Part shown: piece after piece, positions 9,463 to 37,512 of the stretch | Numbering within the stretch: the stretch's first letter is position 1 | How the letters are laid out: each line of letters opens with the position of its first letter | Assembly (NCBI GenBank): GCA_017940605.1 | Contig: JAGAYF010000033.1 | Location: 1-37,948 of the forward strand | From: Bacteroidaceae bacterium | GTDB lineage: Bacteria > Bacteroidota > Bacteroidia > Bacteroidales > Bacteroidaceae | Length of the DNA: 37,948 nt | Reading direction: 5' to 3' | The notes under the pieces: generated by a model | Told to the model about the DNA's origin: nothing | Database searches by the model: none | Seen by the model: only the letters and a program-made list of their open reading frames with translations | Program-made: the position numbers and the translations under genes

Positions 9463-9563
9463 GGGGCGTGAATGCTCTGCCTGCAAGGTGTAAAAGACCG
9501 ACGTATGCGGCTTGAAAAAAATCCTGCAAGGCGTAAGAATCCACCGAACAAGGCGTAAAATTT
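9463..9563 (+). repeat. 22-bp-phased GGCGTAAAA array, copy A
   Basis: Five motif copies start at 9465, 9487, 9509, 9530 and 9552, with spacings of 22, 22, 21 and 22 bp. They read GGCGTGAAT, GGTGTAAAA, GGCTTGAAA, GGCGTAAGA and GGCGTAAAA, three of them preceded by CAA. The array lies in the 470-bp gap between the rpoC terminator and the GH78 gene. I see no clear inverted cap at the 3' end, unlike in the other four copies. Apart from the array, the terminator and the promoter at 9697-9727, I see nothing coding or structured in this gap. Confidence 0.85.
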
Positions 9564-9696
9564 CATGGGCATCCATGTCGGCCATTGCCGACGCTGAAGC
9601 GTGATTGGCCTGTTGCATCAGGAATGGCGGCAGATGCCTTTCGTATGGCCTGTGACGTGCCATGGGCGGTCGCTGTGCTTTTTTCGTTCCGCGTTG

Positions 9697-9727
9697 TTGG
9701 CCGTGTGGTTTTGCTTTTGTAAATTTG
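9697..9727 (+). promoter_or_regulatory. Bacteroidota-type promoter of the GH78 gene
   Basis: A TTG at 9697-9699 is followed by 20 bases and then TAAATTTG at 9720-9727, matching the Bacteroidota pattern TTG / 19-21 bp / TAnnTTTG. The predicted RNA start near 9733 leaves a leader of about 20 bases before the ATG at 9753. Confidence 0.7.
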
Positions 9728-9752
9728 CATATCTGTTTATTTGAAGCTAAGA

Positions 9753-12434
9753 ATGAGATACATGTCCAAGACGTATTGGTTGTGCCTGCTGCTTTTCCCC
9801 TTGTCGGCATGGGCACAGTTGCGCCCCGTGGGGCTGCGAGTAGAACACATGACAAATCCCTCGGTCGTCGACACCAGAGTGCCGCGCCTGTCGTGGATCA
9901 ACCTTCCCTCGTCGGCCCAGGCACGGGGTGAGGTGCAGACGGCCTATGCCATTGAGGTGGCATCCAGCCGCGAGGCCTTGCTGGATGGTCGGGCCGACAT
10001 GTGGCGGTCGGGGCGGTGCAGGTCGGCCGAATCCTGCCTGATACCCTATGCCGGCACGGCCCTGAAGAGCACTGACGAGTGTTGGTGGCGCGTGCGCGTG
10101 TGGGACGGTCGCGGCCGTGCCTCGTCGTGGAGCGAGCCGGCGCACTGGGGCATGGGACTGCTGGACTCTTCCGATTGGCAGGCGCAGTGGATTGGCGCTC
10201 CCTTTGACGGGGCGGCTCCGTTGCTGCGCAAGGCTTTTTCGGTCAGGGGGAAGGTGAAGCGTGCCAAGGCTTACGTTTCCGGCCTGGGCTATTTTGAAAT
10301 GTATGTCAACGGCCGGCGCGTGGGCGACGACTGCCTCGTGCCCAATTTTACCAACTATACCTACCGGCCGGGCCTGGACCATGACCGAGTGCCCATTGAC
10401 GTGGAGTTTTCGCAGTACCGGGTGCTGTACCTCGGGTATGACATTACGGATTTGTTGCAGCCCGGGCGCAATGCCATGGGAGTGGTGCTGGGCAACGGTT
10501 TCTATGAATGCAATAAGACGTGGGTGAAGCGGTTTGGCAAGCCCTGCCTGCTGTGCCAGGTGCTGCTGGAGTATGCCGACGGTGGCCGTGAGTGGCTGGT
10601 GAGCGATACCTCATGGAAAGCAAGGCCTTCGGCCATCGTTGTCAACGGGCCGTATACCGGCGAGGTGTATGACGCGCGCCGTGAGACACCGCAGTGGGCC
10701 ACCGTGCAGGCCGACGAGGCCTCATGGGCGCAGGCCGTTCCGGCCGAAGCCCCCATGGGAAAGCTGACGACGCAGACATCGCCTGCCGACAAGGTGACCG
10801 AGGTGCTGCGCCCCCTGTCGTTGCAGCGGTTGGCCGACGGGAGCATTGAAGTGGACTTCGGCAAGGAGATTTCGGGCTGGATCAGGTTTCGGAACGTGAG
10901 CGGCAGGGTCGGCGACACGCTCAGGGTTAAATATGTGTGTGAATCGCCGCTGGGCGTGCAGGAATATATATTCAAGGGCGCGGAAACGGAAAGCTATGCG
11001 CCGCGTTTTACCTGGTATGTGTTCAGCAAGGCCGTCATTTCGGGCGTGGATCACCTGACGCAGGCGCAGCTCCAGGCCGAGGCGGTGAATACCGATGTGC
11101 CTCGTGCGGCGTGCTTCTCGTCGAGCAACCCGTTGTTTGACCGCATCAACGAGATATGGCAGCAGTCGCAGGTGGACAACATGCATGGCTGCATAGCCAG
11201 CGACTGTCCCCACCGCGAGCGCTCGCCCTATACGGGCGATGGCCAGGTGGCCATGACGACGGTCCTGCATAACTTTGATGCGGCGGCGTTCTATCAGAAG
11301 TGGATTCGCGACATGCGCGATGCGCAGGACAAACACACGGGCTATGAACCCAACGGAGCACCGTGGCAGGTGGGATGCGGCGGCGGCGTGGCCTGGGGCG
11401 CAGCCATGACGCTCATGCCGTGGGAGTTCTACAAGCATTACGGTGACCGCCGCATGTTGGAGGAGAGCTACGGGCCGATGAAGCGGCAGGCCGATTACAT
11501 GCTGGCTTGGATGACCTCCGACAGTACCATGAACCAGCAAATGGTAACGCCCGGAACGGACAAACCCTGCCGATGGCTGAACCTGGGAGACTGGTCGCCG
11601 GCGTTCGGACTGCCTGCCGATGAATTGGTACATACGTTCTACATGTGGCTGTGCCTTGACCATGTGGCGCGGGCCGCACGGGCCATGGACTCAACCGCCG
11701 ACGTGCAGCACTATCAGGCCTTGGCCGATGCCGTGTGGCGCGGATTCCACCGCAAGTTCTGGGATGGGGCGAAGCAAAGCTATGGCGATTTTGGCAGCAA
11801 TGTGTATGCGCTGCGCATGGGCGTTCCCGAGGACCGCTTGTCGGCAGTGAAGGCAACCTTGCGCAAGGAAATCATGGTGACATACAAGGGCCACATTAAC
11901 ACAGGCTTTGTGGCAGCCCGCTACTTCTTTGAAACGCTGGCCAGAAACGGCATGAACGATGTGGCATACGCCGCAATGAACCAGCGGGACTTCCCCAGTT
12001 TCGGCCACTGGCTTGCGCAGGGTGCGACAGTCACCTGGGAACAGTGGGACGGCGGCAATTCGCGCAACCATCCCATGTTTGGCGGCGGCTTGGTTTGGTT
12101 CTACCGCAACTTGGCGGGCGTGCAGGCCGACGAAGCGCGGCCGGGATTCCGTCATTTCAATGTTCGTCCGGTCTTGTGCAGCCAATTGGACAGCGTAAGC
12201 TATTCCCTGCAGACGCCCTACGGCGAAGTGCGCTCCACGGTGCGCAGGGTGGGCGCGAGGACGCGGCAGCAGGTGACCGTGCCCGTGGGAAGCACCGCCA
12301 GTGTTTGGCTGGGGAACGGCCTGACGCAGGATGTGCGCCGTCAGCTCAAGGCATACAAACTGAAGGCGCGGACGAAGGAAAATGGAGACGTTGTCGTGGA
12401 TGTCCCACAAGGCAGCTACACATTTTTATACTAG
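9753..12434 (+). CDS. secreted GH78 family alpha-L-rhamnosidase
   Basis: This enzyme should release terminal alpha-L-rhamnose from plant or bacterial polysaccharides or glycosides by an inverting mechanism, in the periplasm or at the cell surface. The start chosen is ATG 9753, giving 893 residues. An upstream in-frame TTG at 9741 is less likely because the predicted RNA start is just before it and the ATG gives a clean signal peptide (YWLCLLLFPLSAWAQ). After the signal comes the typical N-terminal GH78 segment (LRVEHMTNPSVVDTRVPRLS), then carbohydrate-binding beta domains, the (alpha/alpha)6 barrel and a C-terminal beta domain. The motif SDCPHRERSPYTGDGQ carries the likely general acid D496; TWEQWDGG carries the likely general base E763. 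There are no SusC/SusD genes nearby, so this is a stand-alone enzyme rather than part of a visible utilisation locus. Confidence 0.9.
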   Translation: MRYMSKTYWLCLLLFPLSAWAQLRPVGLRVEHMTNPSVVDTRVPRLSWINLPSSAQARGEVQTAYAIEVASSREALLDGRADMWRSGRCRSAESCLIPYAGTALKSTDECWWRVRVWDGRGRASSWSEPAHWGMGLLDSSDWQAQWIGAPFDGAAPLLRKAFSVRGKVKRAKAYVSGLGYFEMYVNGRRVGDDCLVPNFTNYTYRPGLDHDRVPIDVEFSQYRVLYLGYDITDLLQPGRNAMGVVLGNGFYECNKTWVKRFGKPCLLCQVLLEYADGGREWLVSDTSWKARPSAIVVNGPYTGEVYDARRETPQWATVQADEASWAQAVPAEAPMGKLTTQTSPADKVTEVLRPLSLQRLADGSIEVDFGKEISGWIRFRNVSGRVGDTLRVKYVCESPLGVQEYIFKGAETESYAPRFTWYVFSKAVISGVDHLTQAQLQAEAVNTDVPRAACFSSSNPLFDRINEIWQQSQVDNMHGCIASDCPHRERSPYTGDGQVAMTTVLHNFDAAAFYQKWIRDMRDAQDKHTGYEPNGAPWQVGCGGGVAWGAAMTLMPWEFYKHYGDRRMLEESYGPMKRQADYMLAWMTSDSTMNQQMVTPGTDKPCRWLNLGDWSPAFGLPADELVHTFYMWLCLDHVARAARAMDSTADVQHYQALADAVWRGFHRKFWDGAKQSYGDFGSNVYALRMGVPEDRLSAVKATLRKEIMVTYKGHINTGFVAARYFFETLARNGMNDVAYAAMNQRDFPSFGHWLAQGATVTWEQWDGGNSRNHPMFGGGLVWFYRNLAGVQADEARPGFRHFNVRPVLCSQLDSVSYSLQTPYGEVRSTVRRVGARTRQQVTVPVGSTASVWLGNGLTQDVRRQLKAYKLKARTKENGDVVVDVPQGSYTFLY

Positions 12435-12467
12435 TCTGGAAATCTCCTGTGCGGTTGGGGGAGTCCT

Positions 12468-12803
12468 TCAGGCCCATACCGTTTGCACCAAGAGCATGTA
12501 GGTGAGCGTTCCGCCCGCAATGGACAGCAGCATCTGGCGTTTCCAGGCGTGAAGCGCAACTGTGACGCCGATTCCCAGCAGTTCGGGTAACCCGTAGGGG
12601 CTTTGAAGGAAACTGACGTGGCGCAGACAGTAGACAATGAGCAGTGAAAACACGGAAAGAGGGAGCATGCGGCCCAGGTATTGCACGAAAGGCGGTGTCT
12701 TCCGCCCTGCCGGAAAAAACAGAAAGGGCAAAAACCGCGTCAGCATTGTTCCCAGAACGACGGCGGCAATGGTAATGATTTGCTGGAGCAGCGACATTTT
12801 CAT
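12468..12803 (-). CDS. azlD: AzlD family branched-chain amino acid export subunit
   Basis: This small membrane protein of 111 residues has about four hydrophobic helices and the AzlD pattern ([20 protein letters not shown] near the start, then [20 protein letters not shown]). AzlD proteins work with AzlC as two-component exporters of branched-chain amino acids or their analogues. The start is ATG 12803, which overlaps the azlC stop codon as ATGA, so the two are translationally coupled. Its 3' end faces the GH78 gene across only 33 bases, with no convincing terminator. The exact substrate cannot be told from sequence. Confidence 0.85.
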
Positions 12804-13501
12804 GCTGCGGCCCTCCTTTCCAGCGGTTTGCGTAAAAGGGTGATCAGAACCAGGATGCAGAGCATGGCGAGCAGGACAAATTGGTCCGGCCCCAGGACAA
12901 GCAGGCACAGAACCGATGTGCCGCCGCCAATCCACGCGCTGGTGTGGTCGCGCTCCTTGAACCATTGCTCCAAGAGGATGACAACGAACATGCTGGTCAT
13001 GACAAAATCGAGACCCTTGGTGTTAAAATGGATCATTCCGCCAAACAGGCCGCCGATTACCGCCCCGCTCACCCAATACAGCTGGTTCAGGAGCGTTACG
13101 TAGAACATAAACCAGCCGCGGTTGACCTGCGGCGGAATTTGCGCCGTGTAGTTGATGGAAAACGTCTCGTCGCACATGCCGTAGATGAGGTAAATCTTCT
13201 TCCGCCCCGTGCCGCGAAATCGGTCGAGCATGGAAATGCCGTAGAACAAGTGGCGTGCGTTGATCATGAGGGTCATGAGGAAGGCCTGGAGCGGGTTGAA
13301 TGAGGCCAGCAGCAGGTTGGCGGCCACAAACTCCATGCTTCCGGCAAAGATGGCCGCGCTCATGATGGCCGGATACCACACGCTGAACCCCAGAACGTTC
13401 ATATAGACACCGTAGGTGAGCCCCAGAAACCAGAACCCCGCGAAAATGGGGACGGTATAGGGGAAAGCGGTTTTCAGTGCGCGTAGTCGGACTCCGTCCA
13501 T
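12800..13501 (-). CDS. azlC: AzlC family branched-chain amino acid export permease
   Basis: This is the large subunit of the AzlCD exporter, 233 residues with several membrane helices. The family signature is clear ([15 protein letters not shown], then [20 protein letters not shown] and [14 protein letters not shown]). The open frame extends further upstream, but ATG 13501 ([15 protein letters not shown]) gives the normal family length, and a -7 box lies just upstream at 13537-13544, inside the longer frame. It is divergent from the GH20 gene, with 112 bases between the two starts. Confidence 0.88.
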
Positions 13502-13536
13502 CTTGTAAAAAATCGGTTGCAGTGCCAAAACGGGTG

Positions 13537-13544
13537 CAAAATTA
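13537..13544 (-). promoter_or_regulatory. -7 box of azlCD
   Basis: Read on the minus strand the site is TAATTTTG, fitting TAnnTTTG. It lies 35 bases upstream of the azlC ATG. I see no good TTG at the -33 distance, so this is a partial match supported mainly by its position. Confidence 0.5.
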
Positions 13545-13587
13545 CAGTTTTTCCGTCGCAGTCGGCCCTGAGCCGTCGTTTTTTGCT

Positions 13588-13595
13588 TATTTTTG
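13588..13595 (+). promoter_or_regulatory. -7 box of the GH20 gene
   Basis: TATTTTTG fits TAnnTTTG and ends 18 bases before the GH20 start at 13614. It is back to back with the azlCD box, 44 bases away, so the two transcripts share one short regulatory region. No clear -33 element is visible. Confidence 0.5.
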
Positions 13596-13613
13596 CAGCA
13601 AAATAACAAATAT

Positions 13614-15299
13614 ATGTCATTGAAATACGCGAAAATTCTGATTTTATGGGCCTCCTGCCTCTGTCCGTTGGGCTTGCAGGCCGAGTTGAACGCCTTGATT
13701 CCCATGCCGCAGCAGGTGCAGGAAGGCCAGGGCGAGTTTCTCCTGACCGATGGGCTGACAATCGGCTACAACCACAAGTCATTGCGCCCTGCCGCCGAGT
13801 ATCTGAAGGACAAGCTGGCCACGGCCACGGGCTATGGCGTGCGGGTGAAGAAGGGGAGCGGTACAATCAGCCTGCAACTGGCCGGCCAGCGCAATGATGC
13901 CGACGAAAGCTACACACTGACGGCCGACGGCAGCGGCGTGCATGTGACGGCGGCCGGCTACAAGGGCATCATCCACGGCATATCCACCTTGCGCCAGCTC
14001 CTGCCCCACGAAGTGGAGTCGGCGCGCGCCCAGACGGCCGTGAAATGGAGCGTTCCGTATGTCAAGATCAAGGACCGCCCCTCCTATGAGTGGCGCGGCC
14101 TCATGCTCGACCCTGCCCGCCACTTCTACACGATGGACGAGACGAAGCGATTCCTGGATATGATGTGCCTGTACAAGTTTTCCAAGTTCCATTGGCACTT
14201 AATCGATACCCAGGCTTGGCGAATAGAAATCAAGAAGTACCCCCTGCTGACGCAGAAGGGGGCATGGCGCAACCCCAACAGGGAAAAGATTGACTACGGC
14301 AGCGAAATGTGCGCCCAGGAATGGAACGACCCCAACATGCACCTGCCTCAGAACTTGATCAGGGTAGAAAACGGCGACACACTCTACGGAGGCTACTATT
14401 CGCAGAAGGAAATAGGCGAGATTGTGGCCTATGCGGCCGTGCGCGGCATAGATGTGGTGCCCGAAATCGACTTTCCGGGCCACAACCACAAGGCCACGCG
14501 CTGCTATGACTGGCTGTCGTGCCACCGCGACGGCCTGGACCCCCTGTGCGTGGGCAAGGATTCCGTCATCAAGTTCTGCCAGGATGTCTACAAAGAGATA
14601 TTCAAGCTCTTTCCCTATGAATACGTCGAGATAGGCGGCGACGAGGTGCGCCGCTACCGCTGGGAGACCTGCCCCAACTGCCAGGCGCGCATCCGGCGCG
14701 AGGGACTGAAGGACATCACCGAGTTGCAGGCGTGGTTTACGCGCACAATGGAGAAATACTTCAACCGCCACGGGCGCATGCTCATTGGTTGGGACGAGAT
14801 ACTTGAGGGCGGCGTGTCCAGGACCGCCACCGTCAACTGGTGGCGCGGCTACAAGGCCGGCGTGGTGCAGAAGGCCACCGACGGCGGCAACCAGGTCATT
14901 TGCTGCCCCACGACATTCTGCTACTTCGACTACGCACAAGACGACAGCACGTTGCAAAAACTGTATGAGGGCAACATAGTTCCCGCCCAGCTCACCCCCG
15001 CGCAGCTGCGGTTGGTAAAGGGGATGCAGGCCAACATATGGGGCGAGTACATTCCCACCGAGGCACGCATGCAGTTCATGGTGTTTCCGCGCGCCCTGGC
15101 CTTGGCCGAAAAGGCATGGAACACAACGACGCTGCGCCCCTGGACACAGTTTGCCGCCACCCTGACCGACCACCTGCCGCGCCTGCAGGCCATGGGTGTC
15201 AACTACCGTCCGCTGAAGGCGGGCTTTACCAACGGGTTCAACACGCGCCCCGTCCATCTGCGCACCACGGAAACGCCGTTGAACAAGCCCAAGAAGTAA
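13614..15299 (+). CDS. secreted GH20 family beta-N-acetylhexosaminidase
   Basis: This enzyme should remove terminal beta-linked GlcNAc or GalNAc from glycans such as mucin or N-glycans, using substrate-assisted catalysis. The start is ATG 13614, giving 561 residues; an upstream TTG at 13593 lies inside the promoter. A signal peptide (MSLKYAKILILWASCLCPLG) is followed by a GH20b-type N-terminal domain (about 27-145) and the catalytic barrel, opening with PSYEWRGLMLDPARHF. The catalytic pair is D343-E344 in EIGGDEVRR. Further family motifs are VPEIDFPGHNHKA and IGWDEILEGG. The protein ends soon after the barrel, with no visible C-terminal binding module. An intrinsic terminator follows. Confidence 0.94.
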   Translation: MSLKYAKILILWASCLCPLGLQAELNALIPMPQQVQEGQGEFLLTDGLTIGYNHKSLRPAAEYLKDKLATATGYGVRVKKGSGTISLQLAGQRNDADESYTLTADGSGVHVTAAGYKGIIHGISTLRQLLPHEVESARAQTAVKWSVPYVKIKDRPSYEWRGLMLDPARHFYTMDETKRFLDMMCLYKFSKFHWHLIDTQAWRIEIKKYPLLTQKGAWRNPNREKIDYGSEMCAQEWNDPNMHLPQNLIRVENGDTLYGGYYSQKEIGEIVAYAAVRGIDVVPEIDFPGHNHKATRCYDWLSCHRDGLDPLCVGKDSVIKFCQDVYKEIFKLFPYEYVEIGGDEVRRYRWETCPNCQARIRREGLKDITELQAWFTRTMEKYFNRHGRMLIGWDEILEGGVSRTATVNWWRGYKAGVVQKATDGGNQVICCPTTFCYFDYAQDDSTLQKLYEGNIVPAQLTPAQLRLVKGMQANIWGEYIPTEARMQFMVFPRALALAEKAWNTTTLRPWTQFAATLTDHLPRLQAMGVNYRPLKAGFTNGFNTRPVHLRTTETPLNKPKK

Positions 15300-15327
15300 A
15301 ACGCACAAGCGATTCCGCAGGCATATG

Positions 15328-15365
15328 TTCCGTTCCGGCCCTTGGCGGTCGGGGCGGAATTTTTT
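15328..15365 (+). terminator. intrinsic terminator of the GH20 gene
   Basis: A 13-bp stem, 15328-15340 with 15347-15359 and three G.T pairs, encloses a 6-base loop and is followed by six T at 15360-15365. It lies 28 bases after the GH20 stop. Confidence 0.85.
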
Positions 15366-15412
15366 GTGTCCGGTACTGAAAATGCGGCGCAGGGATGTGG
15401 CAAAGACGTTGC

Positions 15413-15527
15413 GGCCTGAAAATGGGAGAATAAGGCGTAAAGGATGGGCCGACGAGGCGCAAAAGGACGGCGTATGCGGCCCAAAAGATGGACCATCAAG
15501 GCGTAAAAACGCGGTCTTGCGCCTTGG
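15413..15527 (+). repeat. 22-bp-phased GGCGTAAAA array, copy B
   Basis: Five direct motifs start at 15413, 15434, 15456, 15478 and 15500, with spacings of 21, 22, 22 and 22 bp. They read GGCCTGAAAA, GGCGTAAAGG, GGCGCAAAAG, GGCCCAAAAG and GGCGTAAAAA. The last one is followed by an inverted motif TTGCGCC at 15517-15523. CAAGGCGTAA (15497-15506) pairs with 15518-15527 through ten pairs including one T.G. The array sits in the 365-bp gap between the convergent GH20 and GH2 genes. The rest of the gap holds the two terminators and nothing else I can recognise. Confidence 0.85.
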
Positions 15528-15586
15528 ATCTCTGTTCCTGACCCGAGAGGGAACTCTCTATGTGCTTGAGAATGTGCAGAAAATCA

Positions 15587-15629
15587 TTCCGTCTGCCGCT
15601 GGCTCATGGGCGCAGGGCGGCAGGCGGAA
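15587..15629 (-). terminator. probable terminator of the GH2 gene
   Basis: A 13-bp inverted repeat, 15587-15599 with 15617-15629 and one G.T pair, surrounds a 17-base loop. It lies 36 bases downstream of the GH2 stop on the minus strand and is followed there by GATTTTC. The short T-run and the long loop make it weaker than the other terminators in the window. Confidence 0.5.
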
Positions 15630-15664
15630 CGGGCCAATGGCGGAGTGGGTGTGTGGGCGGAGGG

Positions 15665-17779
15665 CTACCTGAGCTGCCGCCATGTCACCTCGTCGGACGT
15701 GCCGTCGGGGGCGACCACACGGAATGTGTCGCTGTCATGCTGGAACTTCAATGGGCCGAACCTGTAGATGACCCCTGTCGGCTCGCCGCTGCCCTGCATG
15801 GTGGCCACCTTTTGGCCGTTCTGGTAGAGGGTCAGGCTGGGGGCGTTGCTGTACACCTTGACCTGGACGGGCTTGCCGGCAGGCAGGGCGTGCATTCGCT
15901 TGGACGTGATGTGCACGGTGGTGGCTTGCTTGTTCCATGCTGCCTTGTACAGGTAGAACGGGTCTTTGCGCGTCTTCCTGTCACGCGTGATGAGCCCCTT
16001 GTCGTTCATGTACTTGCGCTCGGGGTTCTCGGTGAAGTTCACGCCGTCGTCGCTGTCCATGTACCCCTCGGTGCGGGCGGCCACGGGGAAGTCGAACAAT
16101 ATCCACAGCGAGGTGAAGTTGAGCCAAGGCATTTCCACAATTTGCCGCCAGTGGGTCTCGTGTATCAGGTTGCCGTATTCCTCGTAGTGGCGCGAGTCAT
16201 CCTTGCGCTTGGCCATGAGGGTCGAGTCCGTTGTGTGGCAGAAGGGGTTGATGCCGCCGCCGTATTCGGCAATGTTGCTCACGCGGCCCATGTCGCGCAC
16301 CGTGGTCATCTCCTTGGTCAGGTATTCAAAGTTGAATACCTTGTAGTACCATCCGTTGTATCGGTTTTCCGATACGTAGTCGGCCTGAAGCTGGTCGTAT
16401 CCCGGCATGCCCAGCACGCGGCAGTCGGTGAGGCCCACGTAGCGCTGCTTCTCCAGCCGCTTGGCGTGCAGGTACAGCTTGTTGCTCTCGCTGACGACCA
16501 GCGCAGGGTCGGTCTCGCCCTGCATGGACGCTTTCTTGCCGCGGTAGCGCACCTCGTTCCACAGTCCCCAGAAGCCAATGGACGGGTGGTTGTAGAGATT
16601 AATAATCATTTCCTCCAACTGTTGGTGCAGGTTCTTGAAGTAGTTGGGGCCTGCATGCGGTCCGCAGTCGTTGACCCAGGGAATCTCGGTCTGCACCATG
16701 ATGCCCAGGCTGTCGCACAGGCGGAACTCCAGGTCGCGGTGGGGGTAGTGGGCCAATCGCACGAAGTTGGCGCCCAGTTCCCTGACTACTTCGTAGTCGG
16801 CGCGTATGTTGTCGTCCGTCGGGGCGGATGCGCGCTCGTGCATGTCCTGGTGGATGGCCACTCCGCGCAGGGGATAGGGACGACCGTTGAGGAAGAAGCC
16901 CTTGTCCTTGTCCATGCGGAAGAATCGGTAGCCAATGGCGGTCTCGGCCTCGTCGAGCAGGCGGCCGCCCAGGGTGCTGAGCCGCAGTTGCACGGTGTAC
17001 AGGTAGGGATCGCTGAGTCCGTTCCACAGGTGGGGGTTATCCACGCTGAATGTGTGGCTGACGGTCTGTTCCTGGCCGGCGCGGAGTCGCAGGGTCTCCT
17101 TGCCCAGGTAGACGGAGTTGCCTGCCTTGTCTTTTAAAATGATGTCAAGCCGCAGCGAGCGGTTTCCGGAGGTGTTGACCACGTGGGTCTCCACCACTGT
17201 CTGGGCCTGGGCCGCTGTTACCGAGGGAGTGCTGACATGCAGGCGGTACAGCCCGAACTTTTCGGGGCTGAGGTACGCCTCGTTCATTTGCAGGAGGAAA
17301 ACTGGGTTGTGCAGGCCGTTGTTCTTGTTGAAGTCGGACGTGACGGGAGCGAGGGTGATGTCTTCGTGATTGTTGGTCTCGACCTCGATTTCGTTGTCGC
17401 CTGCATGGAGCAGACCGGTCAGGTTAACGCAAAAGGGCGTGTATCCCCCTTTGTGGTAGCGCAGCAGGTGTCCGCCCAGCGAGACCTGGGCTGCCTGGGC
17501 AGCACCTTGGAAGAGCAGGAACGTGGGCCGGCCTTGGTCGGCCTTGCCGATGTGGATCCGGCGCGTGTAGCGGGCCGTGCCCCGATAGTAGCGTTCGGAG
17601 TGGCCGTCGAGTGCGTTGCACGAGTGGGGCAGCGTTACTTGGTGGGGCGTTTCGCCCTGTTTGTTGAAATTCCAGTGGATTAGTTCCTTCTGCTGCCACC
17701 CTATGCGCTGGGCCGTGGCGTTGACGGGCAGGCACAGGCTGAAAAGCAGGGCTGCCGATAATTTTATAAGACGCATCAT
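15665..17779 (-). CDS. secreted GH2 family beta-galactosidase-like enzyme
   Basis: This is a retaining glycoside hydrolase, probably removing beta-linked galactose or a related sugar from glycans. The start chosen is ATG 17779 (MMRLIKLSAALLFSLCLPVN, a good signal peptide), giving 704 residues; a longer frame to 17830 runs through the -7 box. After the signal come a sugar-binding beta domain (about 25-175), an immunoglobulin-like domain (about 180-290) and the catalytic barrel (from about 295: GFFLNGRPYPLRGVAIHQD). The likely acid/base is E409 in GFWGLWNEV and the likely nucleophile E505 in SNIAEYGGG. The segment NDKGLITRDRKTRKDPFYLY is typical of Bacteroidota beta-galactosidases. It is shorter than E. 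coli LacZ and lacks its C-terminal domain 5. GH2 also contains beta-glucuronidases and mannosidases, so the substrate is an inference. Confidence 0.88.
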   Translation of the reverse strand: MMRLIKLSAALLFSLCLPVNATAQRIGWQQKELIHWNFNKQGETPHQVTLPHSCNALDGHSERYYRGTARYTRRIHIGKADQGRPTFLLFQGAAQAAQVSLGGHLLRYHKGGYTPFCVNLTGLLHAGDNEIEVETNNHEDITLAPVTSDFNKNNGLHNPVFLLQMNEAYLSPEKFGLYRLHVSTPSVTAAQAQTVVETHVVNTSGNRSLRLDIILKDKAGNSVYLGKETLRLRAGQEQTVSHTFSVDNPHLWNGLSDPYLYTVQLRLSTLGGRLLDEAETAIGYRFFRMDKDKGFFLNGRPYPLRGVAIHQDMHERASAPTDDNIRADYEVVRELGANFVRLAHYPHRDLEFRLCDSLGIMVQTEIPWVNDCGPHAGPNYFKNLHQQLEEMIINLYNHPSIGFWGLWNEVRYRGKKASMQGETDPALVVSESNKLYLHAKRLEKQRYVGLTDCRVLGMPGYDQLQADYVSENRYNGWYYKVFNFEYLTKEMTTVRDMGRVSNIAEYGGGINPFCHTTDSTLMAKRKDDSRHYEEYGNLIHETHWRQIVEMPWLNFTSLWILFDFPVAARTEGYMDSDDGVNFTENPERKYMNDKGLITRDRKTRKDPFYLYKAAWNKQATTVHITSKRMHALPAGKPVQVKVYSNAPSLTLYQNGQKVATMQGSGEPTGVIYRFGPLKFQHDSDTFRVVAPDGTSDEVTWRQLR

Positions 17780-21109: not shown

Positions 21110-21239
21110 ATTTTTCATGCAAAATGAACCAAACGGCAGAAAACATCCCTGTCAGGTGGAAAACAAGGGCGGGGGCGGCCGCCGGTTGATGCTGCGTGGG
21201 GACGGCCACTCCTTACGTCAGGCCTGCGAAATGCCCTGC

Positions 21240-21350
21240 GCCGCAAAAGGCCGTCCGCCAAGGCGTGAAAAGCAGGCGGATGCGGCCTGAAAAAATTCCT
21301 GCAAGGCGTGAAAGTTCCAACAACAGGGCGTAAAAAAACATGCTTGCGCC
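21240..21350 (+). repeat. 22-bp-phased GGCGTAAAA array, copy C
   Basis: Direct motifs start at 21240, 21262, 21284, 21305 and 21327, with spacings of 22, 22, 21 and 22 bp. They read GCCGCAAAA, GGCGTGAAAA, GGCCTGAAAA, GGCGTGAAAG and GGCGTAAAAA. The last is followed by an inverted TTGCGCC at 21344-21350 that can pair with GGCGTAA. A possible sixth motif, GGCCTGCGAA, lies at 21221. The array sits in the 559-bp gap between the divergent POT and glycine-lipid genes. From 21351 to about 21560 I see no gene or clear structure beyond a short GCCCTTACGGGC hairpin near 21492. Confidence 0.85.
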
Positions 21351-29051: not shown

Positions 29052-29086
29052 GCGCCTGTCTCCGCATGGAGGCAGGTGCTTTTTTT
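29052..29086 (+). terminator. intrinsic terminator after the ABC permease gene
   Basis: A 12-bp stem, 29052-29063 with 29068-29079 and two G.T pairs, has the loop GCAT and is followed by seven T at 29080-29086. It starts 27 bases after the permease stop. Confidence 0.92.
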
Positions 29087-29158
29087 GTTCTCCCTCGGTT
29101 GGTCCTGTGCGTGCAAACCGCTGAATGAAAACATGTTTTGGAAAGGGAAGACAGACGG

Positions 29159-29250
29159 GGCGTAAAGTTCGGATTTTTACGCCTTGTCTGCGGTTTTTTG
29201 CGCCCTGTCCATGGGCCTTTCACGCCTTGCTGGCGATGCTTTTGCGCCTT
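29159..29250 (-). repeat. 22-bp-phased GGCGTAAAA array, copy D (minus orientation)
   Basis: Read on the minus strand, direct motifs start at 29248, 29226, 29204 and 29183 (spacings 22, 22 and 21 bp): GGCGCAAAA, GGCGTGAAA, GGCGCAAAA and GGCGTAAAA. The last is followed by an inverted motif, seen on the plus strand as GGCGTAAA at 29159-29166. It pairs perfectly over eight bases with 29176-29183. The array lies in the 351-bp gap between the ABC permease and dGTPase genes. Confidence 0.87.
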
Positions 29251-30731: not shown

Positions 30732-30779
30732 TCGGGGGCTGTGGGTCATATTGAAATGTGCTTTTCATGAAAACTGATG

Positions 30780-30787
30780 CAAATGTA
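30780..30787 (-). promoter_or_regulatory. -7 box of the dGTPase gene
   Basis: On the minus strand the site reads TACATTTG, an exact TAnnTTTG match. It lies 30 bases upstream of ATG 30749 and 48 bases upstream of ATG 30731. It is only 65 bases from the oppositely directed dut -7 box. No clear -33 element is seen. Confidence 0.55.
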
Positions 30788-30852
30788 GGTAAAAATAAGA
30801 AGATTTACTATTTTTTCATATAAAAAACCTCAGTGTTTTACGGGGAATTCGT

Positions 30853-30860
30853 TATTTTTG
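30853..30860 (+). promoter_or_regulatory. -7 box of dut
   Basis: TATTTTTG fits TAnnTTTG and ends 18 bases before the dut ATG, implying a leader of about a dozen bases. It would drive the whole dut-led cluster, as I see no terminator before 37285. Confidence 0.55.
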
Positions 30861-30878
30861 CAATAAAATGCAACCGCT

Positions 30879-31313: not shown

Positions 31314-31336
31314 TCGTGAAGGAACAGGCACGGGCG

Positions 31337-33100
31337 ATGGCAAGAAAGGCGGTGTTCCTGCTTTTGGCAGGGGTACTCATGCTGTGTCCTGGTGCGCATG
31401 TCCTAGCAAAGGGAAAAAATGTGAAGAAAACACCTGCGTTGACGGAGGAGTCGCGCAGGAAATACGAGAAATACTATTTGGAGGCCGTGACACAGGCTGG
31501 GCTGGGGCATTTTGCGGCCCAGCAGGAGTTGTTGCGCAGGGCACTGAAGTACTGTCCCCATTCGCCGGAGGCGTTGTTTGCCATGGCCGACCTGTCATCG
31601 CAGAATCCGCTCTGTTCGGAGGAGGAGACGGCCGCTCTGTATAGGAAGGCAATTGCGTTGTGGCCCGATAACAATGAGTTTGTCTGGGAATTTGCGAAAT
31701 ATCAGATTAAAACGGGACAGGCTGACAGTGCGACGGTCTTGCTGGAACGCTTGACGAATGACCCGCTGCGGCGCGGCAATGCCTATTCCCTGTTGGGCAA
31801 TGTCTATGAGCACGCTGGAAAATTTGAACAGCTGCTGCAGGTCACCGACCGTTGGGAGAAGGACGAAGGCAAGGACGAGTCGATAGACTGGACGCGGGTG
31901 CGGGCGCTGATGCGGCTGGCCCGGTATGACGATGCCCTGTTGAGGGTGGATTCCATGTGCTTGGCGTATCCGCAGAGCGACTATTATCCTGTCGTGAAGG
32001 CGGAAATATACTTGGATCAAGGCGATACGGCCCGTGCTTTGGCGCAGAACGAAGCCGTGATGCAGGATAATCCGGATAATCGCCATGCGCAGATTTTTTT
32101 GGTGCGGTACTACCAAATGCGGGGCGAGCAGGCGCAACTGGAAAAGCAGATTGAAAAGGTGATTCTCAACCCGAAGCAGGACATGGAGCTCCGTGCGAAT
32201 TTCCTACAGACCTATATGAAGTCGAAAAGTGGGAAGGGACAGGACAATCAGGTGGACAGGATTTTCCGAAGCCTGTTGCAGGAACCCATGGAAAGCCCGG
32301 AGTTGATGAATGTCTTTGTCTCCAGCCTCTCGGCAAAGAATGCGCCCGACACAGCCTACGTTCCGGTGATGACGAAGCTGTTGGAGATTGACCCTACCGA
32401 CAAGGTGTCGCGTTTGCGTGAGGTGTGGGGGCTGTTCAGCCAAAAGAAATACGCCGCTGCGGCCCTTTCGGCCGAGGAAGGAATCAAATACAATCCACAG
32501 GAGTTGTTGTTGTATGTCCTGGGGGGCAACTCCTGCACCGTTTTGAAAGAAAAGGAGAGGGCTGAGCGCGTGTTCTCTGCGGGAATGCCCTATGCTAAAA
32601 ATAATAAGGACAAGGATTTGGTGTCTAATTACTATTCGGCGTACGGAGACCTGATGCATGAGGCAGGAAAGGCCGAGTACAGCTACGCGCTCTACGATTC
32701 CTCGCTGGTTTATAACCCGAGCAACGTGTCTACGCTCAACAACTACGCCTATTTCCTGGCACTGGAGAAATCTGAACTGGACAAGGCGGAACGAATGGCG
32801 GCATTGGCCGTCAAGTACGAGCCTGACGAGCCGACTTTCCTTGATACGTATGCGTGGGTGTGCTTTGTGCGTGGCGATTACGCGAAGGCCCAAATTTATA
32901 TTGAGCAGGCCCTGAAGAATATCAAGGGCGGCAGTACGGATAGCAGCCTGTATGAACACGCGGGGGATATCTATATCCATTTGGGACAAGTTGAAGATGC
33001 CGTAAATGCTTGGAAGCGGGCATTGGAAGCGGGTGGCGACAGCGATGTCCTGCTGAAGAAAATAAAGAAAAGGAAATATATAGAGAATGAGTCACATTAA
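31337..33100 (+). CDS. secreted tetratricopeptide-repeat protein
   Basis: This protein has 587 residues from ATG 31337; GTG 31316, 3 bases past the dut stop, would add seven residues and cannot be excluded. A signal peptide (MARKAVFLLLAGVLMLCPGA) is followed by TPR-like helical pairs over most of the length, for example LLRRALKYCPHSPEALFAMA near the N-terminus and YNPSNVSTLNNYAYFLALEK, EPDEPTFLDTYAWVCFVRGD and HAGDIYIHLGQVEDAVNAWK near the C-terminus. TPR proteins are scaffolds for protein complexes. Its setting, overlapping a lipoprotein gene by 14 bases, suggests a periplasmic or outer-membrane assembly role. The specific function is unknown. Confidence 0.85.
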   Translation: MARKAVFLLLAGVLMLCPGAHVLAKGKNVKKTPALTEESRRKYEKYYLEAVTQAGLGHFAAQQELLRRALKYCPHSPEALFAMADLSSQNPLCSEEETAALYRKAIALWPDNNEFVWEFAKYQIKTGQADSATVLLERLTNDPLRRGNAYSLLGNVYEHAGKFEQLLQVTDRWEKDEGKDESIDWTRVRALMRLARYDDALLRVDSMCLAYPQSDYYPVVKAEIYLDQGDTARALAQNEAVMQDNPDNRHAQIFLVRYYQMRGEQAQLEKQIEKVILNPKQDMELRANFLQTYMKSKSGKGQDNQVDRIFRSLLQEPMESPELMNVFVSSLSAKNAPDTAYVPVMTKLLEIDPTDKVSRLREVWGLFSQKKYAAAALSAEEGIKYNPQELLLYVLGGNSCTVLKEKERAERVFSAGMPYAKNNKDKDLVSNYYSAYGDLMHEAGKAEYSYALYDSSLVYNPSNVSTLNNYAYFLALEKSELDKAERMAALAVKYEPDEPTFLDTYAWVCFVRGDYAKAQIYIEQALKNIKGGSTDSSLYEHAGDIYIHLGQVEDAVNAWKRALEAGGDSDVLLKKIKKRKYIENESH

Positions 33101-33926
33101 AAAAATTGTAAAAGGCGTTGCGCTGCTTCTTGTGCTTACTTTGGCGGCGTGCCACAGGAATCCGAATTTGGAAAAGGGCGCTGCGGATGCCTCAGAACTG
33201 AGTGTAATAAAATATGGTCAGAAAGTAATTTCGCATGCTCAGACGGGAAAGACCGTGACCGCCAAGGCGCGGGTGCGCGTTCAGGCGGAAGGCAAGGATA
33301 TCACGCTGAATGGTAATTTGAAGATGATGCGCGACGAGGTTATCCAGCTTTCGCTGAGTTTGATGGGCTTTGAAGTGGGGCACATGGAGTTTTCAAAGGA
33401 CGAAGTGTTGGTGATAGACCGCGTCCACAGGCAGTTTGTGAAAGTTCCCTACCAGCAAGTGGATTTCCTCGGCAAGGCAAATGTCGATTTCAACGTGTTG
33501 CAGGCCGTTTTCTGGAATGAAATATTTGTGCCGGGCGTTTCCGATGTCAGCCAAGCCCTGAATCAATTTACGATGGCTTCGAGCGGCGACCACACCCTGC
33601 TTTCTCTGAGGACTGCACCCAAGTTAGATTATGGATTCCTCACGCAAACGGCATCGGCATTGTTGTCAAGGACGACCGTCACCCCCAAAAACATCAGCGA
33701 CGACGCAGAACTGGTGTGCAAATACGGAAATTTCTCAAAATTGAACGGGCGTGAATTTCCCACAAGCATTGATGTGAGTTTCAAGGGCGAAGGAAAGACT
33801 TTCAATCTTGTGATGACGCTCAGTGATTTGGGGTCTAAGACGGAATGGACTCCTCATTCGCAGGTAAGTTCCAAGTACAAGCAGGTGGATGCCCGTGGAA
33901 TCCTCAAGAAAATCATGTCAGAATAG
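33087..33926 (+). CDS. DUF4292-type outer-membrane lipoprotein
   Basis: This 279-residue protein has a lipoprotein signal: a basic start (MSHIKKIVKG), a hydrophobic stretch and the lipobox LAAC with the lipidated Cys at 22. The mature part starts HRNPN, without an Asp after the Cys. The rest looks like a LolA/LolB-like beta-sheet sandwich, with a TAKARVRVQAEGKDITLNGN strand region and a C-terminal NLVMTLSDLGSKTEWT segment; this matches what I remember of the DUF4292 family. Its start overlaps the TPR gene by 14 bases and its stop is 9 bases before the EnvC-like gene, so the three are translated together. The function is not established. Confidence 0.8.
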   Translation: MSHIKKIVKGVALLLVLTLAACHRNPNLEKGAADASELSVIKYGQKVISHAQTGKTVTAKARVRVQAEGKDITLNGNLKMMRDEVIQLSLSLMGFEVGHMEFSKDEVLVIDRVHRQFVKVPYQQVDFLGKANVDFNVLQAVFWNEIFVPGVSDVSQALNQFTMASSGDHTLLSLRTAPKLDYGFLTQTASALLSRTTVTPKNISDDAELVCKYGNFSKLNGREFPTSIDVSFKGEGKTFNLVMTLSDLGSKTEWTPHSQVSSKYKQVDARGILKKIMSE

Positions 33927-33935
33927 GCCCGTGCG

Positions 33936-35456
33936 ATGAAAAAGTTCCTTGCTGTTGCATTGTTTTTGCTCCTGACCCTTTCGCAAACCTACGGTCAGGC
34001 GCAGAAGCGCACGACCAAGCCTGCGCAAAAGACGACAGTAGCCAAAAAAACTACCACACCGGCAAGAAAAGTGACCCAGCCCGCGAGAACACAGACCAAA
34101 GGCACGCAAAAGAAGACTCCTGTGGCCAAAAAATCGACATCGGCGGCGACCAGGACGACAAAACGGGCCACAACAGCCAAGAAACCCAGCGAGACGACCT
34201 CCATTTCCAGCCTTCGCTCGCGGCGCAACGCCTTGCAGCAGCAAATCTCCAAGAATGAGGCGCAGCTCAAGGCAGCCGACCGAGATGTCAAGAAGCGGTT
34301 GAGCGACTTGGCTGTCCTTAACGGAAAGATAGACAAGCAACAAAAAGTCATCAGCGAGATACAGCTGCAGCTCGACTCGTTATCGAGCAACATCAGCAGC
34401 CTGACCAGGCAGTACGACACGCTTAGCAAGCAGTTGGACGCACGTAAGCAGAAATACAAGCAGTCATTGTTGTATTTGTACAAGAACGACAATTCCCAGA
34501 ACAAGTTGCTGTTCATCCTGTCGGGACACAATTTTCACCAAATGCAGCGCCGATACAGGTATGTCAGCGAATATGCCAAATACCAGCAGAAACAAGGACT
34601 GCTGATACAGAAAAAACAGGAGCAGGTGGCCCAAGTCAAGGCCGAACTGGAACGAAGCAAAAAGAACCAAAGCCAAAAGCTGGATGCCCAGAAGACCGAG
34701 ACGGAGAAACTGTCCAAACAGCAAAGCGAGCACAAGCAGCAGGTGACGGCCCTCCAGAAAAAACAGAAGGAAATCAGTCGCGTGATAGCTTCCAACAAGA
34801 AGGAAATGGCGGCACTGGATGCAAAAATAGACTACTATGTGAAATTGGCCATCGAGCGTGAGCGAAAGCGTCGCGAGGCCGAGGAGCGCGCACGCGCCGA
34901 GGCCGAAAGGAGGCGCAATCAGGCCCAGCAGTCGTCGCCGTCGGGCAAAGGCAGTACCTCGTCGGGGGTATCCAAGTCGAGCACAGGCTCGTCCAAGGCC
35001 GCTCCCATGCAACAATGGCGCAGCAACGACAAAGACTACACGCTGAGCAAGAATTTCACTTCCAACAAGGGCCGTCTGCCCATGCCCATCACGGGAAGCT
35101 ATGTCATCTCGGCCCACTATGGCAATTACAGCCTGAGCGGTGTCAAGGGTGTCCAGCTCAATAACCGTGGCATCAACATAACGGGCAAGCCCGGTGCGCA
35201 GGCGCGCTGCATCTTCCCGGGCGAGGTGAGTGCCGTCTTCCAATTGGGCGGCCTGTTCAATGTGCTGGTGCGCCACGGCAGTTACATTTCCGTCTACTGC
35301 AACTTGTCTTCCTCGGCCGTCAGACAAGGGCAGAAGGTGTCGACCCGTGCGGTGTTGGGCAATGTGGCACGCGATGCCTCGGGCAACTGCACGCTGCATT
35401 TTCAGCTTCGCAAGGAGACGGCCACCCTGAATCCCGAATCCTGGCTGGCCCGATAA
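33936..35456 (+). CDS. EnvC-like protein with degenerate LytM/M23 domain
   Basis: This periplasmic protein of 506 residues resembles the murein-hydrolase activator EnvC. Signal peptide: MKKFLAVALFLLLTLSQTYG. Residues about 22-85 form a Lys/Thr/Ala/Pro-rich low-complexity stretch. About 88-325 are heptad-rich coiled coil (YDTLSKQLDARKQKYKQSLL). A Ser/Gly linker (about 330-360) leads to the C-terminal LytM domain (about 385-506). The zinc site is lost: the HxGxD motif reads NRGIN (410-414), and the HxH motif reads TLH (486-488). It therefore cannot be a standard M23 endopeptidase and should act by activating amidases during cell division, as EnvC does. It is 9 bases downstream of the lipoprotein gene. 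Confidence 0.87.
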   Translation: MKKFLAVALFLLLTLSQTYGQAQKRTTKPAQKTTVAKKTTTPARKVTQPARTQTKGTQKKTPVAKKSTSAATRTTKRATTAKKPSETTSISSLRSRRNALQQQISKNEAQLKAADRDVKKRLSDLAVLNGKIDKQQKVISEIQLQLDSLSSNISSLTRQYDTLSKQLDARKQKYKQSLLYLYKNDNSQNKLLFILSGHNFHQMQRRYRYVSEYAKYQQKQGLLIQKKQEQVAQVKAELERSKKNQSQKLDAQKTETEKLSKQQSEHKQQVTALQKKQKEISRVIASNKKEMAALDAKIDYYVKLAIERERKRREAEERARAEAERRRNQAQQSSPSGKGSTSSGVSKSSTGSSKAAPMQQWRSNDKDYTLSKNFTSNKGRLPMPITGSYVISAHYGNYSLSGVKGVQLNNRGINITGKPGAQARCIFPGEVSAVFQLGGLFNVLVRHGSYISVYCNLSSSAVRQGQKVSTRAVLGNVARDASGNCTLHFQLRKETATLNPESWLAR

Positions 35457-35482
35457 GGCCATCTTTCCCATCCATTCCTTTT

Positions 35483-37285
35483 ATGCAAGAGGTCCACCTG
35501 TCCCAACTCATTGCCATTCAGGCCCTGCGTTACGGCAACCGCCGTGCCCTGCTGTCAAGGCATGACGACGGATGGCAGGAAATTTCGTGGCAAGCCCTGG
35601 CACAATGGGTGGAGCAGGTGGCCTGCTCGCTGGTCGCGATGCAGGTAGGTGAGGGCGAGGCCATTGCCGTCTTTGCGCCCAACATGGCCGAGGTGCTTGC
35701 GGTGAATTTCGGAGCCTATGCCGCCGGCGCGGTGGTCGTGCCGTTCTTTCCGTCAAGCAGTCCGCAGGACGTGGAGTTCATGCTCCGCGATGCGTCGGTC
35801 AAGGTGCTTTTTGTGGGTGGGCAACGCCAGTACGACACCGCCTTCCCCCTTTTTGCCCGTCTGTCCACGTTGCGCAAAATGGTACTGCTGGACAAGTCCG
35901 TCTGCCGACACCCCATGGACACCTTTTCCCTTCTGCTGGATGAATTCATCGGCCTGGGACGCGGGCAGCGCCATGTCAGCGAGGTGGCCCACCGCCGCAG
36001 CCGTGCCACGCGCCATGCCCTGGCCGATATCCTCTATACCAGCGGCACGACCGGCAGGAGCAAGGGCGTGCAGATTACCTACGGAATGTATGCCGCCGCC
36101 TTCAGGAACAACCAGCCCTACCTGAAAATTTCAGAACAGGACCAGTTGCTGTCTTTCCTCCCCCTGAACCACATCTTTGAGCGGGCCTGGACCTATCTGG
36201 CCCTGTCCTGCGGAGCTGCCATTGCCATCAACCGCGACCCTCGGCAGGTCTTGCAGGCCATGAGTGAGGTGCACCCCACGGCCATGTGTGCCGTGCCCCG
36301 TTTTTGGGAGAAAGTATATGCCGATGTCCTGCACCGCGCGGCACGCCGTGGTGTTTGGGCCAAGGCCGTCCTGCGCACGGCCCTCCGCCAGGGGCATCAA
36401 TACCATGTCTACTGCAGGGGTCGCGGCCTGCAGCCGTCGTTGGGACTCAGGCTGCGCTACATGCTGGCCGACCGTGCCGTGCTTGCCCCTATCCGCAAGG
36501 CCCTGGGGCTGGAGCGCGGGCGCATATTTCCCGTGGCGGGGGCTTCGCTGTCGCCCGTCGTGGAGGGTTTCCTGCATTCGTGCGGAATATGCATGGTGGC
36601 CGGCTACGGGCTGACCGAGACCACGGCCACTGTGTCATTTGACGTTCTGCGGCAGCCATTCACCCTGGGTTCGGTGGGTCGTGTCATACAGGGAATGGAA
36701 GTACACATAGCCCAGGACGGCGAAATACTGGTGCGCGGCGAAATGGTGACCAAGGGGTACTATAGGAATCCCGAGGAGACGGCGCGCGCCCTGGATGCCG
36801 ACGGATGGTTTCATACGGGCGACGCCGGCTACCTGAAAAACGGCGAACTGTACCTGACCGACCGCATCAAGAACCTCTACAAGACCTCCAACGGAAAGTA
36901 CATTGCGCCCCAGCAGGTGGAGAGCGCGCTGCTGGTAGACCGCTACATTGACCAGGTCATGGTCATTGCCGACCACCGCCGGTTCGTGAGTGCGCTCATC
37001 GTGCCCGATTACGAACTGCTCAGGCGTTACGCCGACCGCCACGGCATCAAGGTGGAACACCGCGAGGACATGTGTCGCAACGGGCGCATCCTGCAGTTCC
37101 TGCAGGGGCGCATTGACCAATTGCAGGCCCGACTGGCCGACTATCAGCGCGTCAAGCGGTTCATCCTGCTGAGCCGACCGTTCAGCCAGGAGCGAAACGA
37201 ACTGACCAATACGTCCAAGATGAAGCGCGACGTCATCTTTGACCACAACATTGATGCCATTGAGAAAATGTACAGGGAGTCATGA
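35483..37285 (+). CDS. AMP-forming long-chain acyl-CoA synthetase
   Basis: This enzyme activates a fatty acid to acyl-AMP and then acyl-CoA, for recycling exogenous or membrane fatty acids. It has 600 residues. The ATP-binding loop is TSGTTGRSKG (186-195). Further ANL-family motifs are FLPLNHIFERAW, GYGLTETTATVSF, DGWFHTGDAGYL, LTDRIKNLYKTSNGKYIAP (with the catalytic-lysine region) and the C-terminal lid. It follows the EnvC-like gene by 26 bases with no terminator between, so it is probably the last gene of the dut cluster. The chain length is not readable from sequence. Confidence 0.92.
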   Translation: MQEVHLSQLIAIQALRYGNRRALLSRHDDGWQEISWQALAQWVEQVACSLVAMQVGEGEAIAVFAPNMAEVLAVNFGAYAAGAVVVPFFPSSSPQDVEFMLRDASVKVLFVGGQRQYDTAFPLFARLSTLRKMVLLDKSVCRHPMDTFSLLLDEFIGLGRGQRHVSEVAHRRSRATRHALADILYTSGTTGRSKGVQITYGMYAAAFRNNQPYLKISEQDQLLSFLPLNHIFERAWTYLALSCGAAIAINRDPRQVLQAMSEVHPTAMCAVPRFWEKVYADVLHRAARRGVWAKAVLRTALRQGHQYHVYCRGRGLQPSLGLRLRYMLADRAVLAPIRKALGLERGRIFPVAGASLSPVVEGFLHSCGICMVAGYGLTETTATVSFDVLRQPFTLGSVGRVIQGMEVHIAQDGEILVRGEMVTKGYYRNPEETARALDADGWFHTGDAGYLKNGELYLTDRIKNLYKTSNGKYIAPQQVESALLVDRYIDQVMVIADHRRFVSALIVPDYELLRRYADRHGIKVEHREDMCRNGRILQFLQGRIDQLQARLADYQRVKRFILLSRPFSQERNELTNTSKMKRDVIFDHNIDAIEKMYRES

Positions 37286-37420
37286 CTTCCCAACCCTGTG
37301 CAGCCGTCGCTGATTGAGGAAGAACGGGACGGATTTTGGGTGAAATGCATGGAGTGACGTTTCCTGTGGTTTCGGCAAGTTCTTGGAAATAAGCGGAATC
37401 GACAGGCAATCCATCCCGTG

Positions 37421-37512
37421 GGCGCAAAATATGGTTTTTTACGCCCTGTATGATTTTTTTTACGCCTTTACGGTGTACCTTTCCCGCCCTGTCCGCACGG
37501 TTTTTACGCCTT
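37421..37512 (-). repeat. 22-bp-phased GGCGTAAAA array, copy E (minus orientation)
   Basis: On the minus strand, direct motifs start at 37510, 37488, 37466 and 37445 (spacings 22, 22 and 21 bp): GGCGTAAAAA, GGCGGGAAAG, GGCGTAAAAA and GGCGTAAAAA. An inverted cap, seen on the plus strand as GGCGCAAAA at 37421-37429, pairs with the last motif. The spacing pattern is the same as in copy D. The array lies in the 480-bp gap between the acyl-CoA synthetase and prfB genes. A loose, diverging pair of similar motifs (GCGCC at 37716-37720, GGCGC at 37729-37733) lies nearer prfB. Otherwise the gap shows only a weak promoter-like TAATTTTA at 37677. Confidence 0.87.

Follow-up and report, generated by a model that had tools for sequence, protein, structure and literature searches.

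Repeats dispersed through the extragenic DNA of bacteria are usually defined by their sequence and often by a cognate transposase. Among them, repetitive extragenic palindromes (REP), bacterial interspersed mosaic elements (BIMEs) and REPINs lie outside genes, favor gaps between convergent and unidirectional genes and have a possible role in supercoiling, as described in PMC1525189, PMC3733652 and PMC2817692; the REP unit is given there as a palindrome of 20–40 bp with a GTAG or CGTC tag (PMC3733652). Here we describe arrays of a short direct motif in the genome of a gut bacterium of the Bacteroidaceae; what such arrays have in common across this major gut family is a spacing of two helical turns. 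They were analyzed in a stretch of 37,948 nucleotides (the window; positions 1–37948 of contig 2) and throughout its source, a 2,014,376-base draft genome in 66 contigs that is 73% complete. Like REP and BIMEs, the arrays of the source genome are extragenic, species-specific, present in over a hundred copies and found preferentially in convergent and unidirectional gaps, although the last property does not extend to the family set described below. Unlike them, the arrays are built from a non-palindromic 11-bp motif that is repeated directly at 21/22 bp, only the end copy being inverted (in 30 of 68 arrays), and what the arrays share across species is the register and not the word. The GTAG or CGTC tag is by inspection absent from the unit consensus. 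By definition the arrays are therefore not REP elements, having neither the palindromic unit nor the tag, and their role is comparable to that of E. coli BIMEs at most by analogy. The transposase family PF01797 (Y1_Tnp, RAYT) had no match in the incomplete source genome, with five of 14 control genomes positive.

Direct repeats about two turns apart accompanied by an inverted copy are also characteristic of plasmid iterons with an inverted operator, which are bound by Rep_3 initiators. The arrays resemble iterons in this layout and differ from them in occupying over a hundred chromosomal gaps with no origin. The iteron reading was rejected, as Rep_3 (PF01051) was found in none of eight genomes and in two of 14 controls. 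The ends of transposons of the TnsB/IstA/TniA type carry several 19–22-bp direct repeats at one end and opposed repeats at the other; unlike these, the arrays that we read have no cargo or transposase beside them (no genome-wide search was made). Within the same order, the DR22 repeats of Porphyromonas gingivalis have a 22-bp unit, are local and are not known to form dispersed four-unit arrays. DR22 repeats were not found in the available part of PMC5771137. Searches of an open-access library lacking most subscription papers found no description of 21–22-bp phased species-specific arrays in Bacteroidales. The arrays thus appear to be a kind of dispersed extragenic repeat without earlier description in the literature searched.

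The window contains five arrays (Table 1). All 23 direct units and the 21/22-bp steps named in the original prediction were verified in the sequence; the inverted copies at the ends of arrays B–E were absent from that description and are added here. The motif AAGGCGTAAAA with at most two mismatches occurs 28 times in the window versus 9.86 ± 3.08 times in 100 shuffles (largest value 18), and all 14 matches with no or one mismatch fall in arrays. Comparison with shuffled intergenic DNA was one of the tests on which the prediction was to stand or fall, and the arrays lie far above chance. A distinct variant unit resembling GCGGCcTGAAAAATTTC is found once each in A and C and twice in B; genome-wide, it is the 21-bp unit.

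Table 1. Phased arrays and terminator-like hairpins in the window. E-values refer to the covariance model described in the text, to the building of which four of the five arrays or their loci contributed.
Feature	Position	Strand	Unit starts	Steps (bp)	Model E-value	Remarks
Array A	9463..9560	+	9463, 9485, 9507, 9528, 9550	22,22,21,22	1.2e-18 (9462-9545)	5 units; third unit (9507) variant; no inverted end copy
Array B	15411..15525	+	15411, 15432, 15454, 15476, 15498	21,22,22,22	8.9e-17	5 units; inverted copy 15515-15525 at end; variant-like units 15411 and 15476
Array C	21238..21350	+	21238, 21260, 21282, 21303, 21325	22,22,21,22	5.2e-17	5 units; first unit degenerate; inverted half-copy about 21343-21350; gap flanked by divergent genes
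Array D	29157..29250	-	29250, 29228, 29206, 29185	22,22,21	2.9e-20	4 units; inverted copy about 29157-29167 at end; 16-pair stem (29152-29190) between last unit and inverted copy, with T-rich DNA after it on the + strand
Array E	37420..37512	-	37512, 37490, 37468, 37447	22,22,21	6.4e-18	4 units; inverted copy about 37420-37429 at end
Terminator-like hairpin and T run	9313..9349	+				after rpoC, before array A
Terminator-like hairpin and T run	15327..15360	+				after GH20 gene, before array B
Terminator-like hairpin and T run	29052..29079	+				after ABC transporter gene, before array D

A blastn search with one array as the query gave 41 matches in the source genome. A sequence-only covariance model of 94 positions, derived from 30 arrays, gave 183 matches at E ≤ 1. 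Among the best 150 of these, 147 occupy separate places (E ≤ 3.9e-7), while the remaining three are neighbors of other matches. The extrapolation from the window to hundreds of copies per genome was therefore roughly right. The same model, applied with stricter filters to 60 relatives, gave no match in 18 other genomes of the same genus and a single weak 38-bp match (E=0.007) in one genome of the same family. No Rfam family matched the window at gathering score and, as far as the Rfam and Y1/RAYT searches reach, no described repeat family was matched. Contig C22 (168,583 bp; loci L118–L120) has only one array among the 150 matches listed, along with weak array matches; its sampled G+C values (0.53, 0.64 and 0.59) are mostly above those of the other samples, and it is possibly mis-binned or a distinct region.

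The geometry was examined in 68 distinct source-genome arrays with at least three motif matches each. They contain 139 steps of 22 bp and 70 of 21 bp, and none of 20 or 23 bp although these were allowed. Four units are present in 51 arrays, five in 11 and three in six. Among the four-unit arrays, the step order is 22,22,21 in 33 and 22,21,22 in 17, and 50 of the 51 span 65 bp; by inspection, the 21-bp step comes after the variant unit. The motif, about RRGGCGYRAAA in the source genome, is 0.71–0.85 identical between arrays. Spacer identity is 0.31–0.41 at the same position and 0.29 at another position, falling to 0.263 within an array against 0.254 expected from composition. The motif is thus constrained and the spacers almost free, and these identities together with the fixed steps indicate that the units are not recent tandem copies and that they stand in a set order within the element. 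The last unit is followed by an inverted copy in 30 of the 68 arrays, at an offset of 17–18 in 22 of the 30, compared with 8/68 upstream (p=4e-5) and 7/68 in a control stretch. RNAalifold predicted no pairs in 76 aligned matches (some from overlapping loci), an alignment that takes in the four units but not much of the inverted copy. The original prediction had also invoked bent DNA and A-tracts. As a general principle, this is unsupported, since over 185 de novo arrays of the source and related genomes the A-tract density per 21 bp is 1.22, versus 1.43 in array-free gaps (1.69 versus 1.54 in the source genome, 0.0 versus 1.7 in the relative G027). The G+C content of these 185 arrays is slightly above that of array-free gaps.

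Placement relative to genes was counted for the arrays among the matches listed, in 374 kb of source DNA comprising contigs C10, C9, C33 and C23 and the window; contig C22 was left out because of its one listed array. Genes were predicted with a codon-usage caller, which replaced a longest-open-reading-frame (ORF) caller that had put 26 of the 38 listed arrays inside ORFs. With the codon-usage caller, none of the 38 lies inside a predicted gene. Listed arrays occur in none of the 183 gaps shorter than 200 bp and in 37 of the 73 gaps of at least 200 bp, the 38th array being at a stretch end. Of nine weaker matches in sampled source stretches, gaps hold eight, one of these gaps being 151 bp long, and the ninth overlaps a predicted ORF of 153 bp, so that the claimed confinement to intergenic DNA is borne out. 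The rule of one array per long gap holds in the window and fails over the 374 kb, where arrays are present in 35 of 61 gaps of at least 300 bp and in 2 of 12 gaps of 200–299 bp. By orientation, arrays occupy 12/16 convergent, 21/37 codirectional and 4/20 divergent gaps of at least 200 bp (divergent versus the rest, p=0.0016). Within codirectional gaps, 18 of 21 arrays are closer to the upstream stop than to the next start (p=0.0015), and the strand of the array shows no relation to that of the genes (12 co-oriented, 9 anti-oriented). In the window, arrays A, B and D sit beyond separate terminator-like hairpins. Together with the copy number and the steps, these counts support the claim that the element is dispersed genome-wide in intergenic DNA and strictly phased at two turns.

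Relatives carry other words in the same register. We denote the source genome G000 and the genomes of relatives by further G labels, with L labels for the genomic loci sampled. A lag test was applied to gaps, comparing 12-bp windows with at least 10 identical positions after removal of low complexity. Lag 21 or 22 came out on top in nine of 15 sampled genomes of the genus (G000, G004, G005, G007, G008, G010, G011, G013 and G016), the result for G013 and G016 resting on about 1.4–1.5 kb of gaps. In the same test it was not on top in G002, G003, G006, G012, G017 and G018; G006 and G018 have arrays of 40–43 bp, and a separate examination found 22-bp arrays in G002 and G012. The words include AGGTCGGATGTAGTTTAAACT (G008), GAAAACGGATTTAG (G011), TTCCATnnnATGGAACGTAAA (G005), GGTAAACATACGTTCACCATC (G004), TCTAAGAGCCTTGAAACCAAA (G007) and CTCAGCAAAAGAATCGTCGGTG (G002). 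Pairs of AAAACGGATWTAG at 21 bp with at most three mismatches number 160 in G011, 4 in G015, 2 in G007 and 1 in G012, with none in the other 57 of 61 genomes; the reversed control pattern occurs once across all 61. In the single-contig genome G027, there are 82 pairs of GTCGGTGTCA at 63 places, all at a 22-bp step, and none in six other genomes. By hand count, 38 of these 63 exact-pair places fall within 1.1 Mb (G027:C1, about 1.37–2.47 Mb) of the 2.99-Mb chromosome. A viral link for the G027 word was rejected, since the five IMG/VR matches look by eye like chance repeats; four of the five lie in CGACAC-type runs or coding-like DNA.

The word has changed in place between the sister species G011 and G015, whose syntenic DNA is mostly 77–80% identical (one stretch 91%) and whose HD proteins are 83% identical. 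G015 has the G011 word at a few places. Nine stretches were sought in G015, six around listed arrays of loci L207/L208 and three gaps between syntenic pieces; two further listed L207/L208 arrays lay outside the comparison. Three stretches were not found in G015 and one is coding, leaving five that are comparable, namely four listed arrays and the gap 16640–17020, in which the G011 word is visible. In three of these five gaps (10825, 13700 and 16640), a 21-bp array is clearly kept in place with a changed word; at 13700, for example, GCGGCGTCTC-type units are followed in register by units of the CGGAcaTAG type. At 6265, a weaker, palindromic form is kept (10 matches at lag 21), and at 5880 no array was recognized in G015. 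With a threshold of 9 of 12, the G015 stretches yield 131 matches at lag 21, in six of nine gaps, and 66 at lag 42, with at most 11 at any other lag from 14 to 49. Among Bacteroides, the B. rodentium array at L136 9252–9318 has a diverged 22-bp counterpart in an 81%-identical species (L131), and in B. muris a decayed counterpart was recognized by eye only. Two L127/L128 arrays and one L135/L136 array in named Bacteroides keep both place and word. In several Bacteroides, loci L127, L128, L132, L135 and L139 have a conserved pair of CACCCRAAAACTATCAA units at 22 bp followed by an inverted copy, likewise with place and word kept; this pair may belong not to the variable arrays but to an ordinary operator or attenuator.

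For the family as a whole, we used named Bacteroidaceae loci around the HD phosphohydrolase gene. An alignment-based search of genome contigs retrieved 80 loci, and a search with the single protein none; L121 and L122 belong to the source genus, and the remaining 78 (L123–L200) form the family set. In this set, self-matches at lag 22 amount to 10.28 per kb in gaps versus 0.085 per kb in coding DNA, and at lag 21 to 2.81 versus 0.416 per kb, the latter coding value being like that of other multiples of three. At least six matches are found at lag 22 in 31 of the 78 loci, at lag 44 in 26, at lag 21 in 21 and at lag 42 in 11, and at every other lag from 14 to 49 in at most 10; lag 41 is high in matches (3.05 per kb) through few regions. 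The lag-22 peak is present with both gene callers. The longest-ORF caller underlies the genus lag test, part of the relatives' word lists, the family word recurrence and the lag counts for other families and E. coli, and the codon-usage caller the placement counts, the examination that found 22-bp arrays in G002 and G012, the named-Bacteroides comparison, the family lag rates, the G015 lags and the A-tract densities. In nine genomes, each from a different further family of the order (124 gaps in all), the signal was mixed, the highest of lags 14–69 being 23 bp (101 matches in three gaps). The E. coli K-12 control (200 kb, 86 gaps) gave four matches at lag 21 and none at lag 22. Outside the genus, a single genome often has different words at different places, and a word with at least three further copies in its own stretch was found at nine of the 80 loci; of the nine cases, one is an artefact caused by N letters. 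Together, these comparisons suggest that it is the spacing, and not the sequence, that evolution keeps.

We tentatively favor, as possible rather than probable, a reading of the arrays as phased double-stranded-DNA sites, at the ends of transcription units, for a cooperatively binding protein that would have a boundary or architectural function and co-evolve with its motif. This reading fits best because motif and register are constrained and spacers are free, the periodicity is that of the double strand, no RNA fold is predicted, and the place is kept as the word changes. A sequence-specific protein would occupy each 11-bp motif as a single site; because the step of two helical turns would bring neighboring sites to the same face, the bound molecules could touch and bind cooperatively, and the inverted last copy, where present, would form a dyad capping the row. 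A boundary or architectural role, by topological insulation or by stopping read-through, is proposed because such platforms occupy long gaps, chiefly between convergent genes and at 3' ends, and is thus inferred from position. Protein and motif would change together between species with position and register kept. That register and long-gap position are inherited family-wide, with the word replaced unit by unit and in register between species, is conceivable and we consider it with some doubt.

Several observations weigh against this interpretation. No binding protein was found in a search limited to two family searches; the original interpretation is partly supported, a cooperative DNA-binding protein being the best of the readings considered. 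The 3' preference is absent from the family set of 78 loci (arrays in 8/32 convergent, 34/150 codirectional and 29/111 divergent gaps), moderate in other genomes of the genus (14/41, 15/98 and 10/70, respectively) and reaches p=0.09 in G027, where the loci were partly picked for their arrays. An inverted copy was not recognized in 38 of the 68 source-genome arrays. No array was found in 86 kb of G019 or in 20 kb of G017. Finally, L225 of G002, with 14 or so near-identical units, and an 11-unit array of G027 resemble plain tandem amplification, and the Bacteroides arrays L136 14889 and L128 9816 lack counterparts in 90%-identical species.

The last of these points would be expected if the arrays were non-autonomous elements like miniature inverted-repeat transposable elements, in which the repeats and the opposed end copy are transposase-binding sites, as at transposon ends of the TnsB/IstA/TniA type, and the 3' bias results from insertion and selection. 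Species-specific amplification to over a hundred copies and the defined four-unit order with an opposed end copy, which also occurs in several G027 arrays, agree with such elements. We nevertheless consider them unlikely, since decay of dead copies does not predict a kept motif between almost saturated spacers, nor would the position be kept under a changed word in three of five G011/G015 gaps or one 21–22-bp register be common to many unrelated words. No Y1 transposase was found in the incomplete source genome (DDE transposases were not searched for), and no target duplication was seen by eye at a few G027 array flanks. Neutral and functionless repeats could also be left behind if replication or repair duplicated about 21–22 bp in gaps. 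Such a process would account for the differing words within one genome outside the genus and their rare recurrence, for the homogeneity of some arrays and for the 20–23-bp signals in other families of the order. It is improbable, since in the source genome spacers within an array are at chance level, arrays have mostly four units, and one word stands at 147 places among the matches listed, slippage being no means of dispersing words chromosome-wide.

Some regulators, such as those of the AraC type, typically bind direct repeats spaced by two turns, and the arrays could accordingly be operators of an ordinary regulon, the more so as B. stercorirosoris and its relatives keep the word with the place. 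The poverty of arrays in divergent, promoter-bearing gaps and their position nearer the 3' end in codirectional gaps make this very unlikely. Least credible is that the arrays act toward the 3' end of transcripts as RNA elements or terminators, a reading suggested by the hairpin that the last unit can form with the inverted copy, by the T run after it in array D and by a G007 array whose end is likewise a hairpin and T run. The absence of predicted pairs in the alignment, mainly of the four units, the separate terminator-like hairpins ahead of arrays A, B and D and the indifference of array strand to gene strand all speak against it, and a helical register has no meaning for RNA.

If a protein does read the spacing, Bacteroides and Prevotella relatives would possess an undescribed, fast-evolving system that organizes the chromosome or sets boundaries. 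Otherwise, some process must write 21–22-bp units into gaps, which would be new as well. In either case, the word of a sequenced Bacteroidaceae genome can be sought de novo by a lag test on its gaps. Systems with fast turnover include PRDM9 hotspots and centromere repeats. Should the register be inherited and the word replaceable, a rapidly evolving DNA-binding partner would act at more than a hundred chromosomal sites, and the arrays would be a bacterial counterpart to such systems.

The genes of the window encode RpoB, RpoC, a rhamnosidase, GH20 and GH2 enzymes, enolase, a POT transporter, a CotH-domain protein, a Mur ligase, an ABC transporter and the HD phosphohydrolase. In two species of the genus, heptad repeats of the GGAGTTA/GGAATTA type recur in gaps of L092 (G007) and L093 (G016), beside 21-bp arrays. 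Three gaps of L097 (G012:C1; 943–1799, 3599–4246 and 12949–13633) have long similar stretches in common. These contain a hairpin region with GCAGCCGCTGGTAC and, on the minus strand, short ORF-like sequences that resemble one another, and are perhaps paralogous small-peptide genes.

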